From Methanofollis sp. W23 (GTDB taxonomy: Archaea; Halobacteriota; Methanomicrobia; Methanomicrobiales; Methanofollaceae): a stretch of 64,000 nucleotides of DNA. This document shows positions 5,609-13,714 of this stretch, piece after piece (positions within the stretch are counted from its first letter, which is position 1; each line of letters begins with the position of its first letter). The stretch is taken from assembly GCF_017875325.1 (NCBI RefSeq), contig NZ_JAGGMN010000001.1, forward strand, positions 496,001-560,000, read 5' to 3'. Position numbers and translations under genes: made by a program. A model generated the notes under the pieces. It did not search any database. It saw only the letters and a list, made by a program, of their open reading frames with translations, and was not told the origin of the DNA.

Positions 5609-6325
5609 ATGGATGACATAAGAACCACAATCGATTATGAAAAAGTCTCTGAGAGCCTGAAAGAAACCCTTGGTCTCTCTGGGTCTCCGGTCGCCGTAAA
5701 GTTCGTACGAACAGAGGAAGAGATCCCTGAGGGCGTCGCGGCGCTCGACGAGACCACCCGTCACTGCCAGATGGTCAGCATGGCCAGGAAGGAAGGGAAG
5801 ATCTTCTATGCACCTGTCGACAAGCACTCGTGCTCTGGCGGTGCATGGGCCCTCGGTCTCAAGGGACTCACCCCGAGCCTGAAGAGCGGCGAGTTCTATT
5901 TCAAACTCGGGAAGTTCGACACCTGGGCGGCGTGCAAGCGGACCATCGACAGCATCCCGCACCTGGAGTCGGGGACGACCTATGCCACGATGTATGCCCC
6001 ACTTGAGAAGACGCCTTTCACCCCGACAGTCGTTCTCATCGTGGCCGAGGCCAGGATAATGCTCAAACTTGCCCAGGCCGTGCTGTACAAACTCGGCGGC
6101 AGGATCGAGGCAAACTTCTCCGGCATCCAGTCGGTCTGCGCCGACACCGCCGCTCAGACCTACCTCAACGGCAAGGTGAACTTCTCCCTTGGGTGCGACG
6201 GGTCCAGGAAGTTCTCAGGGATCGAGGACGGCGAGATGGTCATGGGCATCCCGGTCGAACTCCTGCCCGAGATCGCCGAGGCCATCCCGGTCGTCACCGG
6301 CGCACCTGGCTCGGTCAAGAAGTAA
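5609..6325 (+). CDS. DUF169 family protein
   Basis: The 238-residue protein has the DUF169 pattern: N-terminal LGLSGSPVAVKFVR, a central Cys-containing segment (RHCQMV, SCSGGAWALG), CKRTIDSIP, then CADTAAQTYLNGKVNFSLGC toward the C-terminus. DUF169 proteins are common in methanogens. Their biochemical role is unknown, although conserved cysteines suggest metal or thiol chemistry. The start is fixed by GGAGG at 5596-5600 placed eight bases before ATG 5609. It is probably a single-gene unit. Confidence 0.85.
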   Translation: MDDIRTTIDYEKVSESLKETLGLSGSPVAVKFVRTEEEIPEGVAALDETTRHCQMVSMARKEGKIFYAPVDKHSCSGGAWALGLKGLTPSLKSGEFYFKLGKFDTWAACKRTIDSIPHLESGTTYATMYAPLEKTPFTPTVVLIVAEARIMLKLAQAVLYKLGGRIEANFSGIQSVCADTAAQTYLNGKVNFSLGCDGSRKFSGIEDGEMVMGIPVELLPEIAEAIPVVTGAPGSVKK

Positions 6326-6366
6326 AAAAGGGTCAGGACTTCCTGATCTGAAATCTTTCTTTTTTT

Positions 6367-6808
6367 GGCTCTGTAGAACCCCTCACCACTTCTTGGTGTA
6401 AACATAACTCCTCCACCTTCCCCCATCCCCGCGCCGGGGGCTCTGCCCCCGGATCCCCCGGGATGAAGATTGGACCGGGAAGGCGCATTCAACGTTCTTG
6501 AAGAAGGTAATACGTTCTTCGACCAATCGTGTGGCGGGGGTCCGGGGGTGCACCCCCGGCGCGATTTGAGGTGGGAAGGCGTGTGATCTGAAGGCTACTC
6601 TGGCAGATCTATAGGGATTTCTACAGAGCCGATTTTTCTTTTTTTGGCTCTGTAGAATCCGGCATGGTCCCGGGTGGAGTTCATGCAGAGGGGATGAGAA
6701 TTTTTCATCGCTTGATCTCCCATATGAAGAGAGAAGAATCGGTGGGAGATGTGTTCAGTTCGCCGCCCCCGGCCAAAGAAAACTGTCCTGAGGATTTCTA
6801 CAGGGCCT
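6367..6808. repeat. Two adjacent family A repeat elements
   Basis: The first element runs from GGCTCTGTAGAACCCC (6367) to GGGATTTCTACAGAGCC (ends 6630), 264 bases. A second starts at GGCTCTGTAGAATCC (6646) and ends at GGATTTCTACAGGGCC (about 6808). Both left ends are preceded by the same CTTTTTTT. The inner CCTTCCC/GGGAAGGC inverted repeat with the GGGGGCTCTGCCCCC hairpin is complete in the first. The region 6809-6947 is unremarkable. Confidence 0.75.
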
Positions 6809-6947
6809 GAACTTGAAGATGGTGTTGCCGTTCCCGACCAATCGTGCGGGGAGGGTCTGGGGGGTGGTGCACCCTTCCGACGCGAGATGATGGGAAAAAT
6901 TCTGTGGTGGGGCTGGCCACTCCATCACAGGCCCCTCCTGCGCCCCC

Positions 6948-7385
6948 TTACTCCTCCACCATCTGGAGCACCCGCCGGCACGCCTCAGGGACGGCCGCCT
7001 CCACCTCAGGAGTCAACTCGCGTGAGAACGCCTCGATCTCCCCCCCCTCGACCCCGACGATGACCACCTCGGCGGTCACCCCGACCTCGCGGGCAAGGGC
7101 GAGCGTCTCGGCGATCCCGAGGTCATGAAGAGACATCGGGAAGACCGAGGAGGGGGGCACCTCGTGGAAGACCTGCACCTCGCCGGGAGTTCCCATCCCG
7201 GTCGTCGCATCGACGATGACGATACGGTCGTAGCCCTCCATCAGGGGGATGAGCCCAAACCCGCCAAGCCCCCCGTCGATGATATCGAGTTCAGGGTGAT
7301 CTGCAGAGAGCGCTTCCATCACGGCATGGCCGACGCCGTCATTGCCCATATAGGGGTTTCCGCAGGTGATAATACGGACCTTCAT
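6948..7385 (-). CDS. Hydrogenase maturation protease (peptidase M52 family)
   Basis: The 145-residue protein matches the HycI/FrhD-type endopeptidase that clips the C-terminus of the NiFe-hydrogenase large subunit after nickel insertion. Visible family motifs are GNPYMGNDGVGH (metal-binding Asp in NDG), IVDATTGMGTPGEV (second Asp) and SLHDLG (His). The start is ATG 7383-7385 (MKVRIITC), 25 bases after the stop of the upstream binding-protein gene. A longer frame would run into that gene. Decayed copies of the first part of this gene lie in the three spacers between the binding-protein paralogues (8424-8502, 9560-9634, 10651-10722). No hydrogenase subunit gene is in the window, but hypC, hypA and hypE are at 31453-33011. 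Confidence 0.87.
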   Translation of the reverse strand: MKVRIITCGNPYMGNDGVGHAVMEALSADHPELDIIDGGLGGFGLIPLMEGYDRIVIVDATTGMGTPGEVQVFHEVPPSSVFPMSLHDLGIAETLALAREVGVTAEVVIVGVEGGEIEAFSRELTPEVEAAVPEACRRVLQMVEE

Positions 7386-7410
7386 CAGAAAAAAGGGGCG
7401 GTTGGTAGTA

Positions 7411-8307
7411 TTATGCCTTCCCAAGCCAGGCATCGACCTGGTCCGGGTGGGCGTCAAGCCACTTGTTTGCGGCCTCGGTCTCTGTCATCCCATCGTCGAT
7501 ATCAAGCATCACCGACTCCATGTCCTCAGGGGTCCAGTGGAAGCGCTGGAGGATCGCGTAGGCCTCGGGATCGTCCTCTGCCAGGCCCTGGCGTGCAAGG
7601 GTGGCGACATGTTCCTCCCCGCCATAGATCCCCTTCGGGTCCTCAAGGTACTTCAGGTCCCAGCGTGCGAACTTCCAGTGCGGGGTCCACCCGGTGACCA
7701 CGATCCAGTCCTCGTTCTGCACTGCCTTCCTGAGAGCCGAGGCCATGCCGGCACTCGAACTGGAGACCAGAGTATACTCGAGGTCGTAGTCCTCGATCGC
7801 CTCCTCGGTCGCCGCCATGATCCCGGCACCAGGTTCGATGCCGATGATCTTCCCGTCGAACTGGTCCCTGACTCCGTTCATCTCCTCGATCGAGTCGATG
7901 GTCACGTAGGCCGGGACGACCAGTCCGATCCTGGTGCCGTTCATGTTGATGGCGACCTCATCGACCTGGTCCCCGAACTCCTCCATATAGGCCTGGTGGG
8001 TTCGTGGCAGCCACGACGAGACGGTGAAATCGAATTCGCCTTTTGCAAGTCCCTGGTAGAGGGGGGCGGCATCGACCGCGATGAGCGTGACATCATACCC
8101 TGCTTCCTCGAAGACCTGCTTGATCACGTTGGTGCTTGCGATCTCAGAGTCCCAGAGGACATACCCGATGGAGATCGACTTCGGTTCTGTGGTCCCGTCA
8201 GGGGGAGAGCCATCGTCGCCGGTACACCCGGCGGCGAAGAGACATGCAACGGTCAGGAGAGCGACAAGGATATATGTACATATTTTAGATTGCATCATAC
8301 ACATCAT
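7411..8307 (-). CDS. Glycine-betaine-type substrate-binding lipoprotein, copy 4
   Basis: The OpuAC/ProX-like solute-binding protein (about 295 residues) has a lipoprotein signal (LLTVACLFAAGC) and the aromatic ligand residues of this family: GYVLWDSEIASTN, VSSWLPRTH and GWTPHWKF. It would capture betaine-like quaternary amines outside the cell for the permease/ATPase encoded at 11643-13714. The start is ambiguous: ATGs lie at 8307, 8304, 8298 and 8295, and GGA at 8308-8310 best suits 8298. It is the last of four tandem paralogues and lies 25 bases upstream of the protease gene, which is probably the ancestral order. Confidence 0.88.
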   Translation of the reverse strand: MMCMMQSKICTYILVALLTVACLFAAGCTGDDGSPPDGTTEPKSISIGYVLWDSEIASTNVIKQVFEEAGYDVTLIAVDAAPLYQGLAKGEFDFTVSSWLPRTHQAYMEEFGDQVDEVAINMNGTRIGLVVPAYVTIDSIEEMNGVRDQFDGKIIGIEPGAGIMAATEEAIEDYDLEYTLVSSSSAGMASALRKAVQNEDWIVVTGWTPHWKFARWDLKYLEDPKGIYGGEEHVATLARQGLAEDDPEAYAILQRFHWTPEDMESVMLDIDDGMTETEAANKWLDAHPDQVDAWLGKA

Positions 8308-8423
8308 TCCAGCATCTTTTTCATACCGTCTCCGGCAGGGGGCGCTGCCCCTCTGGTCGAGCGCGATTCATCAGCCCCTCCATGACTGTCACTATGCTCA
8401 TCACCCCAGGGGAATGAGCAGAA

Positions 8424-8502
8424 AAATCGTTTCACTACAGCGTGTCCGATACTGACGCTGCCCGAACATCTGGTGGCGCAGACAATTGGACCGGGCCTAC
8501 AC
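8424..8502 (-). pseudogene. Relic of the maturation-protease gene start in spacer 3
   Basis: On the minus strand, just after the stop of binding-protein copy 3 and a run of T, the DNA aligns with the first part of the protease gene at 7385. The best-matching piece is GGGCAGCGTCAGTATCGG (relic) against GGGCAATGACGGCGTCGG (gene), and ACACGCTGTAGTGAAACG continues the alignment. The start codon is GTG and the frame is closed by stops. This is what tandem duplication of a binding-protein gene plus the 5' end of its downstream neighbour would leave. Confidence 0.6.
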
Positions 8503-8542
8503 CTGAAAAAAAGGAAGTCAGTATTATTATAGTTTTATATTC

Positions 8543-9430
8543 TCATGCCGTCTTCCCGAGCCAGGCATCGACCTGCTCAGGATGGGCCTCGACCCACTTC
8601 GCCGCCGCATCTTCGGCCTTCATGCCATCTTCGATATCAAGCATCACGGTGTTCATATCCTCGGCAGTCCAGTGGAACCGTTCGAGGATCGCGTAGGCCT
8701 CGGGGTCGTCCTCGGCCAGGCCAGGACGTGCAAAGGTGGCGATATACTCGTCCTTCCCAAAGACGTCCTGGGGTTCGTCCAGGAACTTCAGGTCCCAGCG
8801 TGCGAACTTCCAGTGCGGCACCCATCCCGTGACCACGACCCATTCGTCGCGGTCGACCCCTCTCTTCAGGGCGCTGACCATCCCGGCAGTGGAACTCGGG
8901 ACCAGTTCATAGTCCAGGCCATAGGCTTCGATCAATTTCTCGGCCGTATGCATGGTCCCTGAACCTGGGTCGATCCCATAGATCTTGCCGCCGAACTTCT
9001 CTTTGACGGCCGGGTCGTTGAGGTCTTCCACCGAGTCGATGGTCACATAGGTCGGGACGACCAGTCCGATGAGCGCCCCGCCTTCGAGGTTCTTTCTGAC
9101 CAGGTCGATCTGGTCGCCGTACTTGTCCCAGTACGTCTTCTGCGTCACCGGGAGCCATCCTGAGACCGAACAGTCGATGCTTCCCTGTGCCAGTCCCTCG
9201 AAGAGAGGGGCAGCGTCGATAGCAGTGATGGTGACATCATAGCCTGCTTTCTCAAAGACCTGCTTGATCACGTTGGTGCTTGCGATCTCAGAGTCCCAGA
9301 GGACGTATCCAATAGAGATCGACTTCTGTTCGGAAGACTGTGCACCTTCACCTGTGCATCCGGCAGTGAAAGCCGATGCAACAACAAGGAAGCCGATAAA
9401 GAGGTATACAAGACCTTTGATATGTTTCAT
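8543..9430 (-). CDS. Glycine-betaine-type substrate-binding lipoprotein, copy 3
   Basis: The 295-residue lipoprotein has signal MKHIKGLVYLFIGFLVVASA followed by AGC. It carries the GYVLWDSEIASTN, VSGWLPVTQ and GWVPHWKF ligand motifs of betaine-binding OpuAC proteins. It has the clearest start of the four copies (ATG 9428-9430). It is closely related to copies 1 and 4 in this cluster. A T-rich tract (CCTTTTTTT, 8506-8514 on the plus strand as A) follows its stop and could act as an archaeal transcription terminator. Confidence 0.9.
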   Translation of the reverse strand: MKHIKGLVYLFIGFLVVASAFTAGCTGEGAQSSEQKSISIGYVLWDSEIASTNVIKQVFEKAGYDVTITAIDAAPLFEGLAQGSIDCSVSGWLPVTQKTYWDKYGDQIDLVRKNLEGGALIGLVVPTYVTIDSVEDLNDPAVKEKFGGKIYGIDPGSGTMHTAEKLIEAYGLDYELVPSSTAGMVSALKRGVDRDEWVVVTGWVPHWKFARWDLKFLDEPQDVFGKDEYIATFARPGLAEDDPEAYAILERFHWTAEDMNTVMLDIEDGMKAEDAAAKWVEAHPEQVDAWLGKTA

Positions 9431-9559
9431 TCAATCACACAGCACTGCAAGATCACGCTCATGCAGTATGAGCGGGCTAAAGTCCAGGGCCAGACCGGGG
9501 TGCTGAACGGTGGTTGCACTCTTCGCCCCGGTTGCCCTCTGGCGTTTCACCAAGAAATA

Positions 9560-9634
9560 TGCTAGATGTTGGCTACGTGTCCGATGCCATTTGTTCAGAT
9601 AATGGTTGAGAGAGGCGATGGCCCGGACTTTTAC
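9560..9634 (-). pseudogene. Relic of the maturation-protease gene start in spacer 2
   Basis: Reading down the minus strand from 9634, GTAAAAGTCCGGGCCATCGCC corresponds in its central part to the protease start ATGAAGGTCCGTATTATC. After a small shift, the codons for N-G-I-G-H-V-A match the N-D-G-V-G-H-A metal motif of the intact gene. The start codon and the frame are destroyed. Confidence 0.55.
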
Positions 9635-9662
9635 CCAAAAAGTAGAATGGTTGTCTATCTTT

Positions 9663-10547
9663 TTATGCTTTGCTGCCGGTCCAGGCCTCGACCTGGTCGG
9701 GATGACTCTGTACCCACTTCTCTGCTGCCTCCTCAGGCGTCATGCCGTGCTCTTCCATGTCATACATCACCGAGGCCATATCTTCGGGCGTCCAGGTGAA
9801 ACGTTCCAGGACCGCATAAAGGTCGGGCATCTTGTCTTTGAGTCCCTGCCGGGCGTAGGTGGCGATGTATTCCTCGTCGCCGTACACGTTCTCCGGGTCC
9901 TCAAGGTACTTCAGGTCCCACCTGATGAACTTCCAGTGCGGCGACCATGCGGTGACCACGACCCACTCGTCCCGATCGATCGCAGACTTCAACGATGCAA
10001 GCATCCCCACCTCGCTGCCAGACTGGAGCGTATACTCAAGGCCGTACGCCTCGATCGCCTCGTCGGTCCCCTGCATGATCCCGGCGCCGGGTTCGATGCC
10101 GATGATCGTCCCGTCGAATTTATCCCTGACCCCGTTCAGTTCATCGATCGAGTCGATGGGGACATACGTGGGGACGGCAAGTCCGCACCGTGTCCCGATG
10201 AGGTTCTTGCGTACAAAATCGATCTTGTCCTCGTACTTGTCCAGATAATTTCCATGGCAGGTCGGGAGCCATGCATCCACGATGAAGTCCACATCGCCAC
10301 TGGCGACGGCCGCCCAGGCGATCCCGACATCCACCTCCTTGATAGTGATGGCATATCCGGCGTCTTCAAGCACCTCTTTGAGCACATGGGCACTCGACTG
10401 CGCCGTCCCGTAGGGGGTGCTGACAAGGGTCGCTTCTTTTTCGACGCTACTCACGTCTCCGCCGGTGCCGGTACACCCGGTGATGAGGACACAGGCAACG
10501 GCAAGGAGACCGATAACAAAAATTATGCAACTTTTTCTCATGTTCAT
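9663..10547 (-). CDS. Substrate-binding lipoprotein, copy 2 (divergent pocket)
   Basis: The OpuAC-like lipoprotein (294 residues) has signal peptide and lipobox LLAVACVLITGC. Unlike the other three copies it lacks GYVLWDSEIAST at the start of the mature domain and has STPYGTAQSSAHV instead. The remaining pocket motifs are VDAWLPTCH and AWSPHWKF. This suggests a different ligand or affinity. ATG 10547 or 10541 could be the start, and TTG 10550 is also possible. It lies between copies 1 and 3 in the same orientation. Confidence 0.87.
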   Translation of the reverse strand: MNMRKSCIIFVIGLLAVACVLITGCTGTGGDVSSVEKEATLVSTPYGTAQSSAHVLKEVLEDAGYAITIKEVDVGIAWAAVASGDVDFIVDAWLPTCHGNYLDKYEDKIDFVRKNLIGTRCGLAVPTYVPIDSIDELNGVRDKFDGTIIGIEPGAGIMQGTDEAIEAYGLEYTLQSGSEVGMLASLKSAIDRDEWVVVTAWSPHWKFIRWDLKYLEDPENVYGDEEYIATYARQGLKDKMPDLYAVLERFTWTPEDMASVMYDMEEHGMTPEEAAEKWVQSHPDQVEAWTGSKA

Positions 10548-10650
10548 CAATCAAGATAGAAATTGTGTTCGTCGGTCGGTACGACTGAGCGCCATGGCTC
10601 AGGTTCATCCGGTCGGGAACAATTCGCCGGTCTCTTGCAGTGCAGAGTTC

Positions 10651-10722
10651 TCAGGGAAAGAGATGTCCGATATCGTCGTTGCGTGTCGTCGATGTGTAAT
10701 AGGCGATGGTCCGGACCTTCAT
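10651..10722 (-). pseudogene. Relic of the maturation-protease gene start in spacer 1
   Basis: This is the best preserved relic. From ATG 10720-10722 it reads MKVRTIAYYTSTTRNDDIGH then LFP and a stop, against MKVRIITCGNPYMGNDGVGH of the intact protease at 7385. It follows the stop of binding-protein copy 1 after CCTTTTTCTTTTTTT at almost the same distance (24 bases) as the real gene follows copy 4. Confidence 0.7.
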
Positions 10723-10745
10723 CAAAAAAAGAAAAAGGAAGACAG

Positions 10746-11627
10746 TTACGCCTTCCCGAGCCAGGCGTCGACCTGGTCTGGGTGGGCGTCGATCCACTTC
10801 TTTGCGGCGTCCTCATGGGACATGCCCTCCTCGATATCGAGCATCACCGACTCCATGTCTTCAGGAGTCCAGTAGAAGCGTTCGAGGATCGCGTAGGCCT
10901 CGGGGTCGTCCTCGGCAAGGCCAGGACGTGCAAGCGTGCCGAGATACTCCTCGCCGCCAAAGACGCCTTTCGGGTCCTCAAGGTACTTCAGGTCCCAGCG
11001 GGAGAACTTCCAGTGTGGGGTCCACCCGGTGACCACGACCCATTCGGCCCGGTCGACCGACTTCTTCAGGGCTGAGGCCATGCCGGCGCTTGAACTGTAG
11101 ACAAGGTCATAGTCGAGGTCGTATTCCTCGATTGCGTCCTCGGCATTATTAACGACCCCGGCACCGGCGTCGATGCCGACGATCTTCCCGTCGAACTTGT
11201 CCTTGACCTCGTTCATCTCTTCGATGGAGTCGATGGTCACATAGGTCGGGACGACCAGGCCGATCTTGGCGCCTTCAAGGTTTTTCCTGACAAAGTCGAG
11301 CTGGTCCCCGTACTCGTCCATGTAGACCTTCTGGGTCCTGGGGAGCCAGGCGGAGACGGTGCAGTCCACGTCGCCGCTGACGATGGCCTGGTAGAGCGGC
11401 GCAGCGTCGACGGCCGTGATGGTGACGTCATATCCGGCCTTCTCGAAGACCTGCTTGACCACGTTGGTGCTCGCGATCTCGGAGTCCCAGAGGACATACC
11501 CGATGGAGATCGATTTCTGTTCTGATGGTTGTGCGTCTCCGCCGCTGCCGGTGCACCCGGCGCTGAGGACGAGTGCCACGGCAAGGAGGCCGCAGAGGAT
11601 GAATCCGATTCTGCTGTTCTGTTTCAT
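10746..11627 (-). CDS. opuAC: Glycine-betaine-type substrate-binding lipoprotein, copy 1
   Basis: The 293-residue lipoprotein has lipobox AVALVLSAGC. Its GYVLWDSEIASTN, VSAWLPRTQ and GWTPHWKF motifs place aromatic residues for quaternary-amine binding. It is the copy directly downstream of the permease gene (16 bases) and so probably the original partner in the operon. ATG 11627 (MKQNSR) is preferred, and a GTG three codons upstream is possible. The T-rich tract just after its stop may end much of the transcription, allowing different expression of the later copies. Confidence 0.9.
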   Translation of the reverse strand: MKQNSRIGFILCGLLAVALVLSAGCTGSGGDAQPSEQKSISIGYVLWDSEIASTNVVKQVFEKAGYDVTITAVDAAPLYQAIVSGDVDCTVSAWLPRTQKVYMDEYGDQLDFVRKNLEGAKIGLVVPTYVTIDSIEEMNEVKDKFDGKIVGIDAGAGVVNNAEDAIEEYDLDYDLVYSSSAGMASALKKSVDRAEWVVVTGWTPHWKFSRWDLKYLEDPKGVFGGEEYLGTLARPGLAEDDPEAYAILERFYWTPEDMESVMLDIEEGMSHEDAAKKWIDAHPDQVDAWLGKA

Positions 11628-11642
11628 GATAATCACTGATAA

Positions 11643-12494
11643 TTATTGTTCAGTACGTTTGGGGGCGAGGCTCTGGGTCACCCGGTCGAGGATGATCGCG
11701 ATGATCACGATCGCAAGCCCGCCTTCGAACCCGAGGCCGATGTCGAGACGCTGGATTCCCTCGAGCACCTTGTAGCCGAGACCCTGGGCCCCGATCATGG
11801 CGGCGATGACCACCATCGAGAGGGCCATCATGATGCCCTGGTTGATGCCCGCCATGATCGTCGGCAGGGCGACCGGCAGCTGCACCTTGATCAGTTTCTG
11901 TCTCTCGGTCGTACCAAAGGCGTCGGCAAGTTCGATCAGTTCCCTGGGCACCTGCTGGATCCCGAGGGCCGTGAGCCTGACCACCGGCGGCATCGCAAAG
12001 ATGACGGTGGCGATCATGCCTGGTACATTCCCGAGGCCGAAGAAGACCACGGCCGGGATGAGATACACGAAGGCCGGCATCGTCTGCATGAAGTCAAGGC
12101 ATGGCTTGATGAGCCGGTGGGTGGTCTCTGAACGCGCTGCCAGGATCCCGGTTGGGATCCCGATTATGAGCGCAAAGAGTGTGGACGCCAGGACCAGGGC
12201 AAGCGTCTCCATCGCCAGGGACCAGAGTTGGAGGTCCCAGATGAGCAAGAGCCCGACCGCCGAACCGATGGCGAGTTTGGTATCGCGTTTGGTGACAAGC
12301 CAGATAAGCACCGCCGCAACGGCGATGAAGACCGGGGCCGGGAGGATGAGAAGGACATATTTCATCCCCTCGATGATCCAGTCCAGCCCGTCGCTGATCC
12401 AGTCCAGGACGACGGCAAAATTGATCTCGATCCATTCGACGAGGGCCTCGACGGCGTCGCCGAGCGGGATCTTGGGGAGTTCAAACCCGTTCAT
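11643..12494 (-). CDS. opuAB: Glycine betaine/proline-type ABC transporter permease
   Basis: The 283-residue inner-membrane permease is of the ProW/OpuAB type. After an amphipathic N-terminus there are several membrane segments and the cytoplasmic EAA-type loop ELADAFGTTERQKLIKVQLP, which docks on the ATPase, followed by PTIMAGINQGIMMALSMVV. The start ATG overlaps the ATPase stop by four bases (12491-12494), so the two are translationally coupled. It imports osmolytes together with the ATPase encoded upstream and one or more of the four binding proteins. Confidence 0.92.
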   Translation of the reverse strand: MNGFELPKIPLGDAVEALVEWIEINFAVVLDWISDGLDWIIEGMKYVLLILPAPVFIAVAAVLIWLVTKRDTKLAIGSAVGLLLIWDLQLWSLAMETLALVLASTLFALIIGIPTGILAARSETTHRLIKPCLDFMQTMPAFVYLIPAVVFFGLGNVPGMIATVIFAMPPVVRLTALGIQQVPRELIELADAFGTTERQKLIKVQLPVALPTIMAGINQGIMMALSMVVIAAMIGAQGLGYKVLEGIQRLDIGLGFEGGLAIVIIAIILDRVTQSLAPKRTEQ

Positions 12495-13714
12495 TCTTCA
12501 TCTTCCTCCTCACCGCTGGCGGTGACGTCAAGGGCCCCGAGGAGCGACCCCCTGACAATGACTCCCCTGAGCCGGTTGTTCTCGTCGACGACCGCGACCG
12601 GGTACTGGGTCGTGGCCACGAGCCCCATCAGGTCACGGACCGGGGTGTCGGGGGCCGTGACCGGGGTGTCGGTAATGAGAATATCCTCGATGTTGGTCTT
12701 CTTTGCTCGTGCCGCGGCGACCGCATCTTCAACGGTCACCATGCCTCTGAAGGTCTTCCCCTTCCCGACCGCAAAGATCGTCGAGATCCCGTGGTCTTCC
12801 ATCAGTTTCATGGCGACCCTGGGACCTGAGACGATCGAGACTACCGGGTCGGGGTTTTTCATAACGCCTTCGGCGGTGAGCACCTTGGTCATGTCGACCC
12901 CGGCGACAAAGCTTGTCACATAGTCGTCGGCCGGGGAGGTGAGGATCTCCTCGGGCGTGCCGACCTGGACGACGGACCCATCTTTCATCAGGGCGATCCG
13001 GTCCCCGAGTTTGAGGGCCTCGTCGAGGTCGTGGGTCACGAAGATGATCGTCTTGTTCAGTTCGTTCTGGAGGTCGAGGAGTTCGTCCTGCATCCCGGTC
13101 CTGATAATGGGGTCGAGGGCGCTGAAGGCCTCGTCCATCAGGAGGATGTCAGGGTCGCTTGCAAGTGCACGGGCCAGACCGACCCGCTGCTTCATCCCGC
13201 CTGAGAGGGCGTCAGGTATGCTCTCCTCGTATCCGGAAAGCCCGACCATCTCGATGGTCTTCTTTGCCTTTTCAAGCCGTTCTTCCTCTGGCATCCCCTG
13301 GACTTCCAGTCCGAAGGCGACATTCTCGATGACGCTCCGGTGCGGAAGGAGGGCAAAGTTCTGGAAGACCATGCCCAGTTTCTTCCGTCGTACGTCCCTG
13401 AGTGCGTCCTCGTCGAGCGAGGCGATGTCGGTGCCGTCGATGAGAACCTCTCCTGAGGTCGGTTTGATCAATCGGTTTGTACACCTGAGAAGAGTAGACT
13501 TGCCTGAGCCTGAGAGGCCCATGACCACAAAAATTTCACCCTCTTGGATCGAGAGGTTCACGTCCCTGAGACCGATGGTCTGTCCGGTTTTGTCCAGGAT
13601 ATCCTCTTTGGAATGTCCTTCTTTCACCAGAGCGAAGGCATCGGTGGGATGTTTTCCGAAAATTTTATACAATGATCTGATGACGAGTTTGGGTTTTACC
13701 ATCTCCTGATTCAT
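12491..13714 (-). CDS. opuAA: Glycine betaine/proline-type ABC transporter ATPase with CBS domains
   Basis: The 407-residue ATPase shows Walker A GLSGSGKST, the signature LSGGMKQRVGLARAL and Walker B ILLMDEAFSALDP. A C-terminal pair of CBS domains (from about residue 285) follows, as in OpuA-type transporters where CBS domains sense ionic strength. The start ATG 13714 has GGAGG at 13721-13725 (six-base spacing). It is the first gene of the osmolyte operon. The 310-base upstream region contains a TATA-like stretch and a strong palindrome. Confidence 0.93.
   Translation of the reverse strand: MNQEMVKPKLVIRSLYKIFGKHPTDAFALVKEGHSKEDILDKTGQTIGLRDVNLSIQEGEIFVVMGLSGSGKSTLLRCTNRLIKPTSGEVLIDGTDIASLDEDALRDVRRKKLGMVFQNFALLPHRSVIENVAFGLEVQGMPEEERLEKAKKTIEMVGLSGYEESIPDALSGGMKQRVGLARALASDPDILLMDEAFSALDPIIRTGMQDELLDLQNELNKTIIFVTHDLDEALKLGDRIALMKDGSVVQVGTPEEILTSPADDYVTSFVAGVDMTKVLTAEGVMKNPDPVVSIVSGPRVAMKLMEDHGISTIFAVGKGKTFRGMVTVEDAVAAARAKKTNIEDILITDTPVTAPDTPVRDLMGLVATTQYPVAVVDENNRLRGVIVRGSLLGALDVTASGEEEDEE

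Follow-up and report, generated by a model that had tools for sequence, protein, structure and literature searches.

Spacers in a Methanofollis binding-protein array as readable scars of an old tandem duplication

How did a single ATPase/permease pair of a betaine/choline-type importer come to be followed by four binding-protein genes, and why do the spacers between these genes resemble the beginning of the hydrogenase maturation protease gene that follows the last of them? The locus lies in a 64,000-nucleotide stretch of the Methanofollis sp. W23 genome (the window; its genome is G000 in the cross-species comparisons), with 25 nt separating X4 from the protease (Table 1). An initial annotation had proposed that a binding-protein gene plus the 5' part of the protease gene was duplicated at least three times, leaving decayed protease starts of 60-75 bases in every spacer.

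Table 1. Features of the binding-protein array and its neighbours (window positions)
Feature	Position	Strand	Evidence or remark
proV, ATPase of betaine/choline-type ABC importer	13714-12491	minus	TIGR01186 475 bits, above cut-off
proW, permease	12494-11643	minus	PF00528; final ~50 nt form the unit's left edge
X1, OpuAC-family binding protein	11636-10746	minus	PF04069 7e-70; trees; common to all array-clade species
S1 spacer (X1-X2)	10745-10551	minus	
S1 T tract and protease-start remnant	10664..10745	minus	nhmmer 15.6 bits; ATG kept, 23 codons open
S1 remnant, last ~50 nt of proW	10572..10623	minus	0/500 and 0/1000 shuffles
X2, OpuAC-family, different subfamily	10550-9663	minus	STPY[GD]T replaces WDSE motif; tree; alignment
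S2 spacer (X2-X3)	9662-9431	minus	protease-start remnant on 5' side; conserved; predicted long hairpin
X3, OpuAC-family binding protein	9430-8543	minus	PF04069; orthologous group in G001, G004, G011
S3 spacer (X3-X4)	8542-8308	minus	
S3 T tract and protease-start remnant (the window's longest)	8408..8529	minus	nhmmer 19.1 bits; orthologous spacers E 2e-21, 2e-17
X4, OpuAC-family binding protein	8307-7411	minus	PF04069; TATA-like CATAATAC in stop-codon region
Intact hydrogenase maturation protease, HycI family, remnant donor	7385-6948	minus	PF01750 9e-23; TIGR00072

The proposed homology of all three spacers to the protease start was borne out by a DNA profile (nhmmer) built from 12 intact protease genes, which matched S3 with 19.1 bits (E 5.3e-7), S1 with 15.6 bits (E 6.4e-6) and S2 with 12.5 bits (E 5.6e-5). 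With a version of the profile beginning at the ATG, used to keep the T tract from contributing, S2 and S3 scored above 500 of 500 shuffles and S1 above 499 of 500. Pairwise DNA alignment against shuffled spacers, the check originally proposed, upheld S1 (score 37 against a shuffle maximum of 26, 0/1000) and was scoring-dependent for the other two: under strict scoring neither S2 (p 0.92) nor S3 (p 0.04) stood out, and under looser scoring S3 was reached by 0/1000 shuffles and S2 gave p 0.007. Strict pairwise alignment was thus too weak alone for S2 and S3, and profiles were used instead. Aligned in register, S1, S2, S3 and the X4-protease junction all carry the described T tract and protease-like stretch, namely the tract, then ATGAAGGTCCG...ATCGCCT, then ATCGGACA about 40 nt further on, and the translation given for S1, MKVRTIAYYTSTTRNDDIGH, was correct. 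The 3' part of S3, considered as a continuation of the protease, was no better than shuffles and was rejected.

At the level of sequence comparison, the decisive evidence for the remnants comes from the orthologous spacers of relatives and not from the window alone. Against the protease profile, the G004 X3-X4 spacer matched with E 2e-21 and reached approximately 155 nt into the gene, followed by the G005 X2-X4 spacer (E 1.7e-17), the G001 X4-X4 spacer (E 8e-14) and the G005 X1-X2 spacer (E 6e-8), the G001 X2-X3 spacer being the weakest match (E 0.014). The remnant length first claimed is therefore too short for the S3-type spacers of relatives, which retain about 155 nt of the gene. Across the genus, a single spacer between binding-protein genes, the X1-X2 spacer of G001, consists of unrelated sequence; all others showed homology to the protease start, and the ATG-start profile beat shuffles for most of them. 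At the protein level, the G004 spacer matched protease residues 1-46 (43%, two stops; remnant VKVRVIACCTLHLGNDGVGRAVV against intact MKVRIITCGNPYMGNDGVGHAVM) and the G001 spacer residues 2-25 (63%); the G005 S3 remnant is frameshifted and other remnants contain stops. These comparisons confirm the observation of protease starts in the spacers.

On its opposite side the unit takes in the end of proW. A profile built from the final 300 nt of this gene found its last ~50 nt before X2 in both the window and G005 (0/500 shuffles each, and also 0/1000 for S1-type spacers), and local alignment found the same end in the G004 S3-type spacer (0/1000 shuffles), with a marginal match in the G005 S3-type spacer (p 0.04). 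In shuffle tests the proW end was undetectable in S2-type spacers and not significant in S3 of the window, which leaves it unproven that all three spacers share one junction. A proW end beside a protease start forms the junction that is expected when a segment ending inside both of its neighbours is repeated, and the data suggest a clean junction, between approximately protease codon 50 and the proW end, common to several species. The repeated unit, well supported in the X1-X2 spacer, is then the end of proW, a binding-protein gene and the start of the protease gene; the unit first claimed was right at the protease edge and incomplete at the other, since the proW end belongs to it too. The locus shows homologous repeats, downstream-gene homology on the 5' side of the spacers and a simple gene order in relatives, together with upstream-gene homology on the 3' side of S1-type spacers and the G004 S3-type spacer.

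Two other explanations of the remnants, chance and copying of a larger unit, can be set against these data. T-rich tracts followed by GC-rich sequence could imitate a protease start through composition, as the unremarkable strict pairwise scores of S2 and S3 would allow, but shuffles are outscored even when the profile omits the T tract, the orthologous G004 spacer matches far too well (E 2e-21), and the G004 remnant as a query was specific genome-wide: in the window's own genome it matched best at 7330-7397 of the window, where the intact protease begins (E 2.4e-10), and second best in S1 (window 10701-10730, E 0.003), the next match having E 0.4. Chance similarity, contradicted by the relatives, is extremely improbable. 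Alternatively, the whole protease may have been copied with each proX and then shortened by deletions; the gene start is retained in all spacers, shortening of pseudogenes by deletion is a known process, and relative to the window ~30 nt have been lost from the S1-type spacer of G004. However, no spacer has a convincing match past approximately nt 155 of the gene, and in the G004 S3 spacer the proW end follows directly after approximately nt 155, as in a direct junction, leaving whole-gene copying an improbable course of events.

A third possibility is that the remnants were kept for function, the carried protease promoter (CATAA at -30, T tract, first codons) now serving the binding-protein genes downstream, either in their transcription or in regulation by a leader. 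In each of the 12 genomes CATAA stands 29-30 nt ahead of the protease ATG. It is kept even in G002 and G006, where proX is 0.76-1.1 kb off and no more than the final ~15 nt of an X gene are left, and no ribosome-binding site is evident before the protease. From this arrangement we infer a leaderless protease transcript with a promoter overlapping the end of X, which the duplication would have copied into every spacer. S3-type spacers retain TATAATAAT at the distance of CATAA, and the S2 sequences of G000 and G011 share 84% identity over 231 nt, compared with 55-69% at 4-fold sites and 34-61% for plainly intergenic stretches (one 58-nt divergent promoter, at 83%, being the exception); only plainly intergenic rows were counted in this control, with antisense reading frames elsewhere taken as genes. 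S2 also folds better than shuffles, with z -4.2 in the window and z -3.5 to -3.7 in three species. Conversely, S1 has no TATA-like box in the window and G005, S3 is only 65-66% identical between G000 and G004/G005, no better than 4-fold sites, and covariation in S2, from three sequences only, is not clearly above shuffles (3 double changes against 1.4, 65/500). A scan for sigma-70 promoters and intrinsic terminators returned no more than chance, with models not suited to archaea. Retention for function is conceivable, though we consider it doubtful.

Within this comparison S2 deserves separate mention, as the claimed decay of the protease starts agrees with the stops and frameshifts of the remnants but not with the unusual conservation of this one spacer. 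The difference from the other spacers is one of degree, since some spacers of the close pairs G000-G001 and G004-G005 likewise exceed 4-fold sites somewhat in identity. The 5' arm of its predicted long helix is the protease-start remnant, one pair in the helix is compensated, and in the three sequences 92.7% of cells are paired, compared with ~40% when slid. S2 is single-copy in every genome having it, and an Rfam search of 6300-13000 gave one sub-threshold match only and none for S2. The conservation and predicted fold of S2 are suggestive of co-option, and it is conceivable, if rather unlikely, that promoter and first codons of the protease became a conserved structured leader controlling the downstream binding-protein gene. 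A regulatory RNA would then have been born from a duplication scar, and a functional S2 would illustrate how a regulatory leader can be made from the broken start of a gene. An inverted repeat, ACTGCA-N12-TGCAGT, lies just upstream of the X3 start (window 9431-9475), is kept in G001 and G011, and could be an operator or a hairpin.

The spacers were also considered as a dispersed element and this was rejected, as the G004 remnant matches just the protease and S1 in the window's own genome. A separate dispersed repeat, GGCTCTGTAGAA, occurs in the window at 676, 6367, 6619, 6646, 31079, 37859, 41177 and other positions, with 17 sites at no more than one mismatch where 0.2 are expected; genome-wide it has 265 exact copies (reversed control 0). 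It is sometimes found in facing pairs, is also present on the G001 contig with the X4-X4 array (L035), and perhaps forms the termini of a small element, non-coding and either mobile or structural.

Comparison with relatives having fewer copies showed the simple order proV-proW-X-25 nt-protease in five single-copy species (G003, G007-G010), in which the sole binding-protein gene lies 25 nt before an intact protease. In the species tree, clade A comprises G006, G007, G002 and G003, with one X each, and clade B comprises (G004, G005, G000, G001) and (G011, (G008, G009, G010)). In G002 (L036) and G006 (L040), 0.76-1.1 kb of GC-rich repeat-like sequence lies between proX and the protease, though ~15 nt from the end of an X gene still stand in front of the latter. 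The tree of copies, a check that the initial annotation had proposed, identified X1, X3 and X4 (~70% identical) as duplicates within the genus, forming orthologous groups inside clade B with an only moderately supported branching order, but did not place X2 (54%) as a tandem copy. The tree gives duplications that would predate the split of the array-bearing species, and copy losses in G004, G005, G011 and G008-G010. X2 is missing from G004 and X3 from G005, each species keeping the flanking spacer types, G011 retains X1-S2-X3, and the single X of G008-G010 falls in the X1 group, from which it follows that these three species lost their other copies. In G001, X4 is present twice, the two copies being separated by an S3-type remnant; the X2 of this species (L034) is broken by a stop codon and a frameshift and lacks its 5' part, and the adjoining S2 is 90% identical to that of the window. 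At least three duplications are consequently not forced: three spacers do not by themselves amount to three duplications, given that X2 was recruited and copies were lost in relatives, and the tree gives two events for X1, X3 and X4 with a later duplication of X4 in G001.

X2 does not fit the claim that all four genes are amplified copies, as it belongs to a different, order-wide subfamily, from which the sequences indicate that it was recruited into the array. Its closest relative outside the genus is in G027 (65%, compared with 56% to X1), and the tree unites it, at support 99/92, with binding proteins that stand alone in other genera, so that the array is a mosaic. In alignment, the place of VLWDSE in X1, X3 and X4 is occupied in the X2 group by STPY(D/G)T or something close to it, X2 itself having STPYGT. 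The OpuAC pocket is a three-tryptophan prism (PMC2861598), of which the WDSE tryptophan is presumably one member; X2 would be without this candidate position, and its ligand is likely to be different. Members of this subfamily (STPYDT for WDSE) in G027, G017, G012 and G037, all four from other genera, have no recognisable proV/proW pair adjoining. The idea that X2 itself combines array sequence with foreign sequence was rejected, with no clear breakpoint. X2 is flanked by remnants on both sides, and simple tandem duplication does not explain how this came about.

Taken together, tandem duplication with junctions of protease start and proW end, followed by decay, divergence, recruitment of X2 and losses, is very probably the correct explanation of the locus. 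The ancestor of one Methanofollis subclade would have had the order proV-proW-proX-protease, with 25 nt from proX to the protease. Recombination between approximately codon 45-52 of the protease and a point ~50 nt before the end of proW, a presumed breakpoint, would have produced a tandem proX and left a protease start/proW end junction between the copies, as seen in the X1-X2 spacer and one X3-X4 spacer. Further copies may have arisen by unequal recombination between the long repeats, carrying the junction along, a step supported by the S3-specific features of the G001 X4-X4 spacer. The truncated protease starts, having no protein function, would then have decayed and the X copies diverged; X2, from another subfamily and altered in its betaine pocket, would have occupied one slot, and some species would later have lost copies. 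The resulting array probably lets one ProVW importer take several related solutes, or use differently regulated receptors. Many tandem duplications have no readable junction, so that unit size and edges are usually guessed; the edges here are readable in several species, which makes it possible to put in order how copies were gained and lost and when a foreign binding protein joined the array.

In the literature searched, this array is undescribed. It is like a ProU/OpuA-type importer (proVWX) in having a proV with a CBS domain, a proW and OpuAC-family binding proteins (PF04069), and X1, X3 and X4 keep their PF04069 score and the WDSE, WLP and WxPHW motifs of Lactococcus lactis OpuA; it differs in having four binding-protein genes per one ATPase/permease pair, and in an X2 without the WDSE tryptophan. 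The protease at 6948-7385 satisfies the superfamily cut-offs of the HycI-family maturation proteases (TIGR00072, 113 bits against 47; PF01750, 81 against 23) but not the equivalog cut-off of TIGR00130 for FrhD, the F420-hydrogenase protease (58 bits against 135), nor those of the HycI and HupD models. As in tandem duplication by illegitimate recombination, the unit is head-to-tail with its edges inside both neighbours, the end of proW and the start of the protease, fragments decay and copy number changes later by homologous recombination. The process is known and it is the good preservation that is notable: the spacers are scars of an old tandem duplication, and the locus differs from the usual outcome in that its junction fragments are readable across a subclade and despite copy losses, one slot holds a gene of another subfamily, and one spacer appears conserved.
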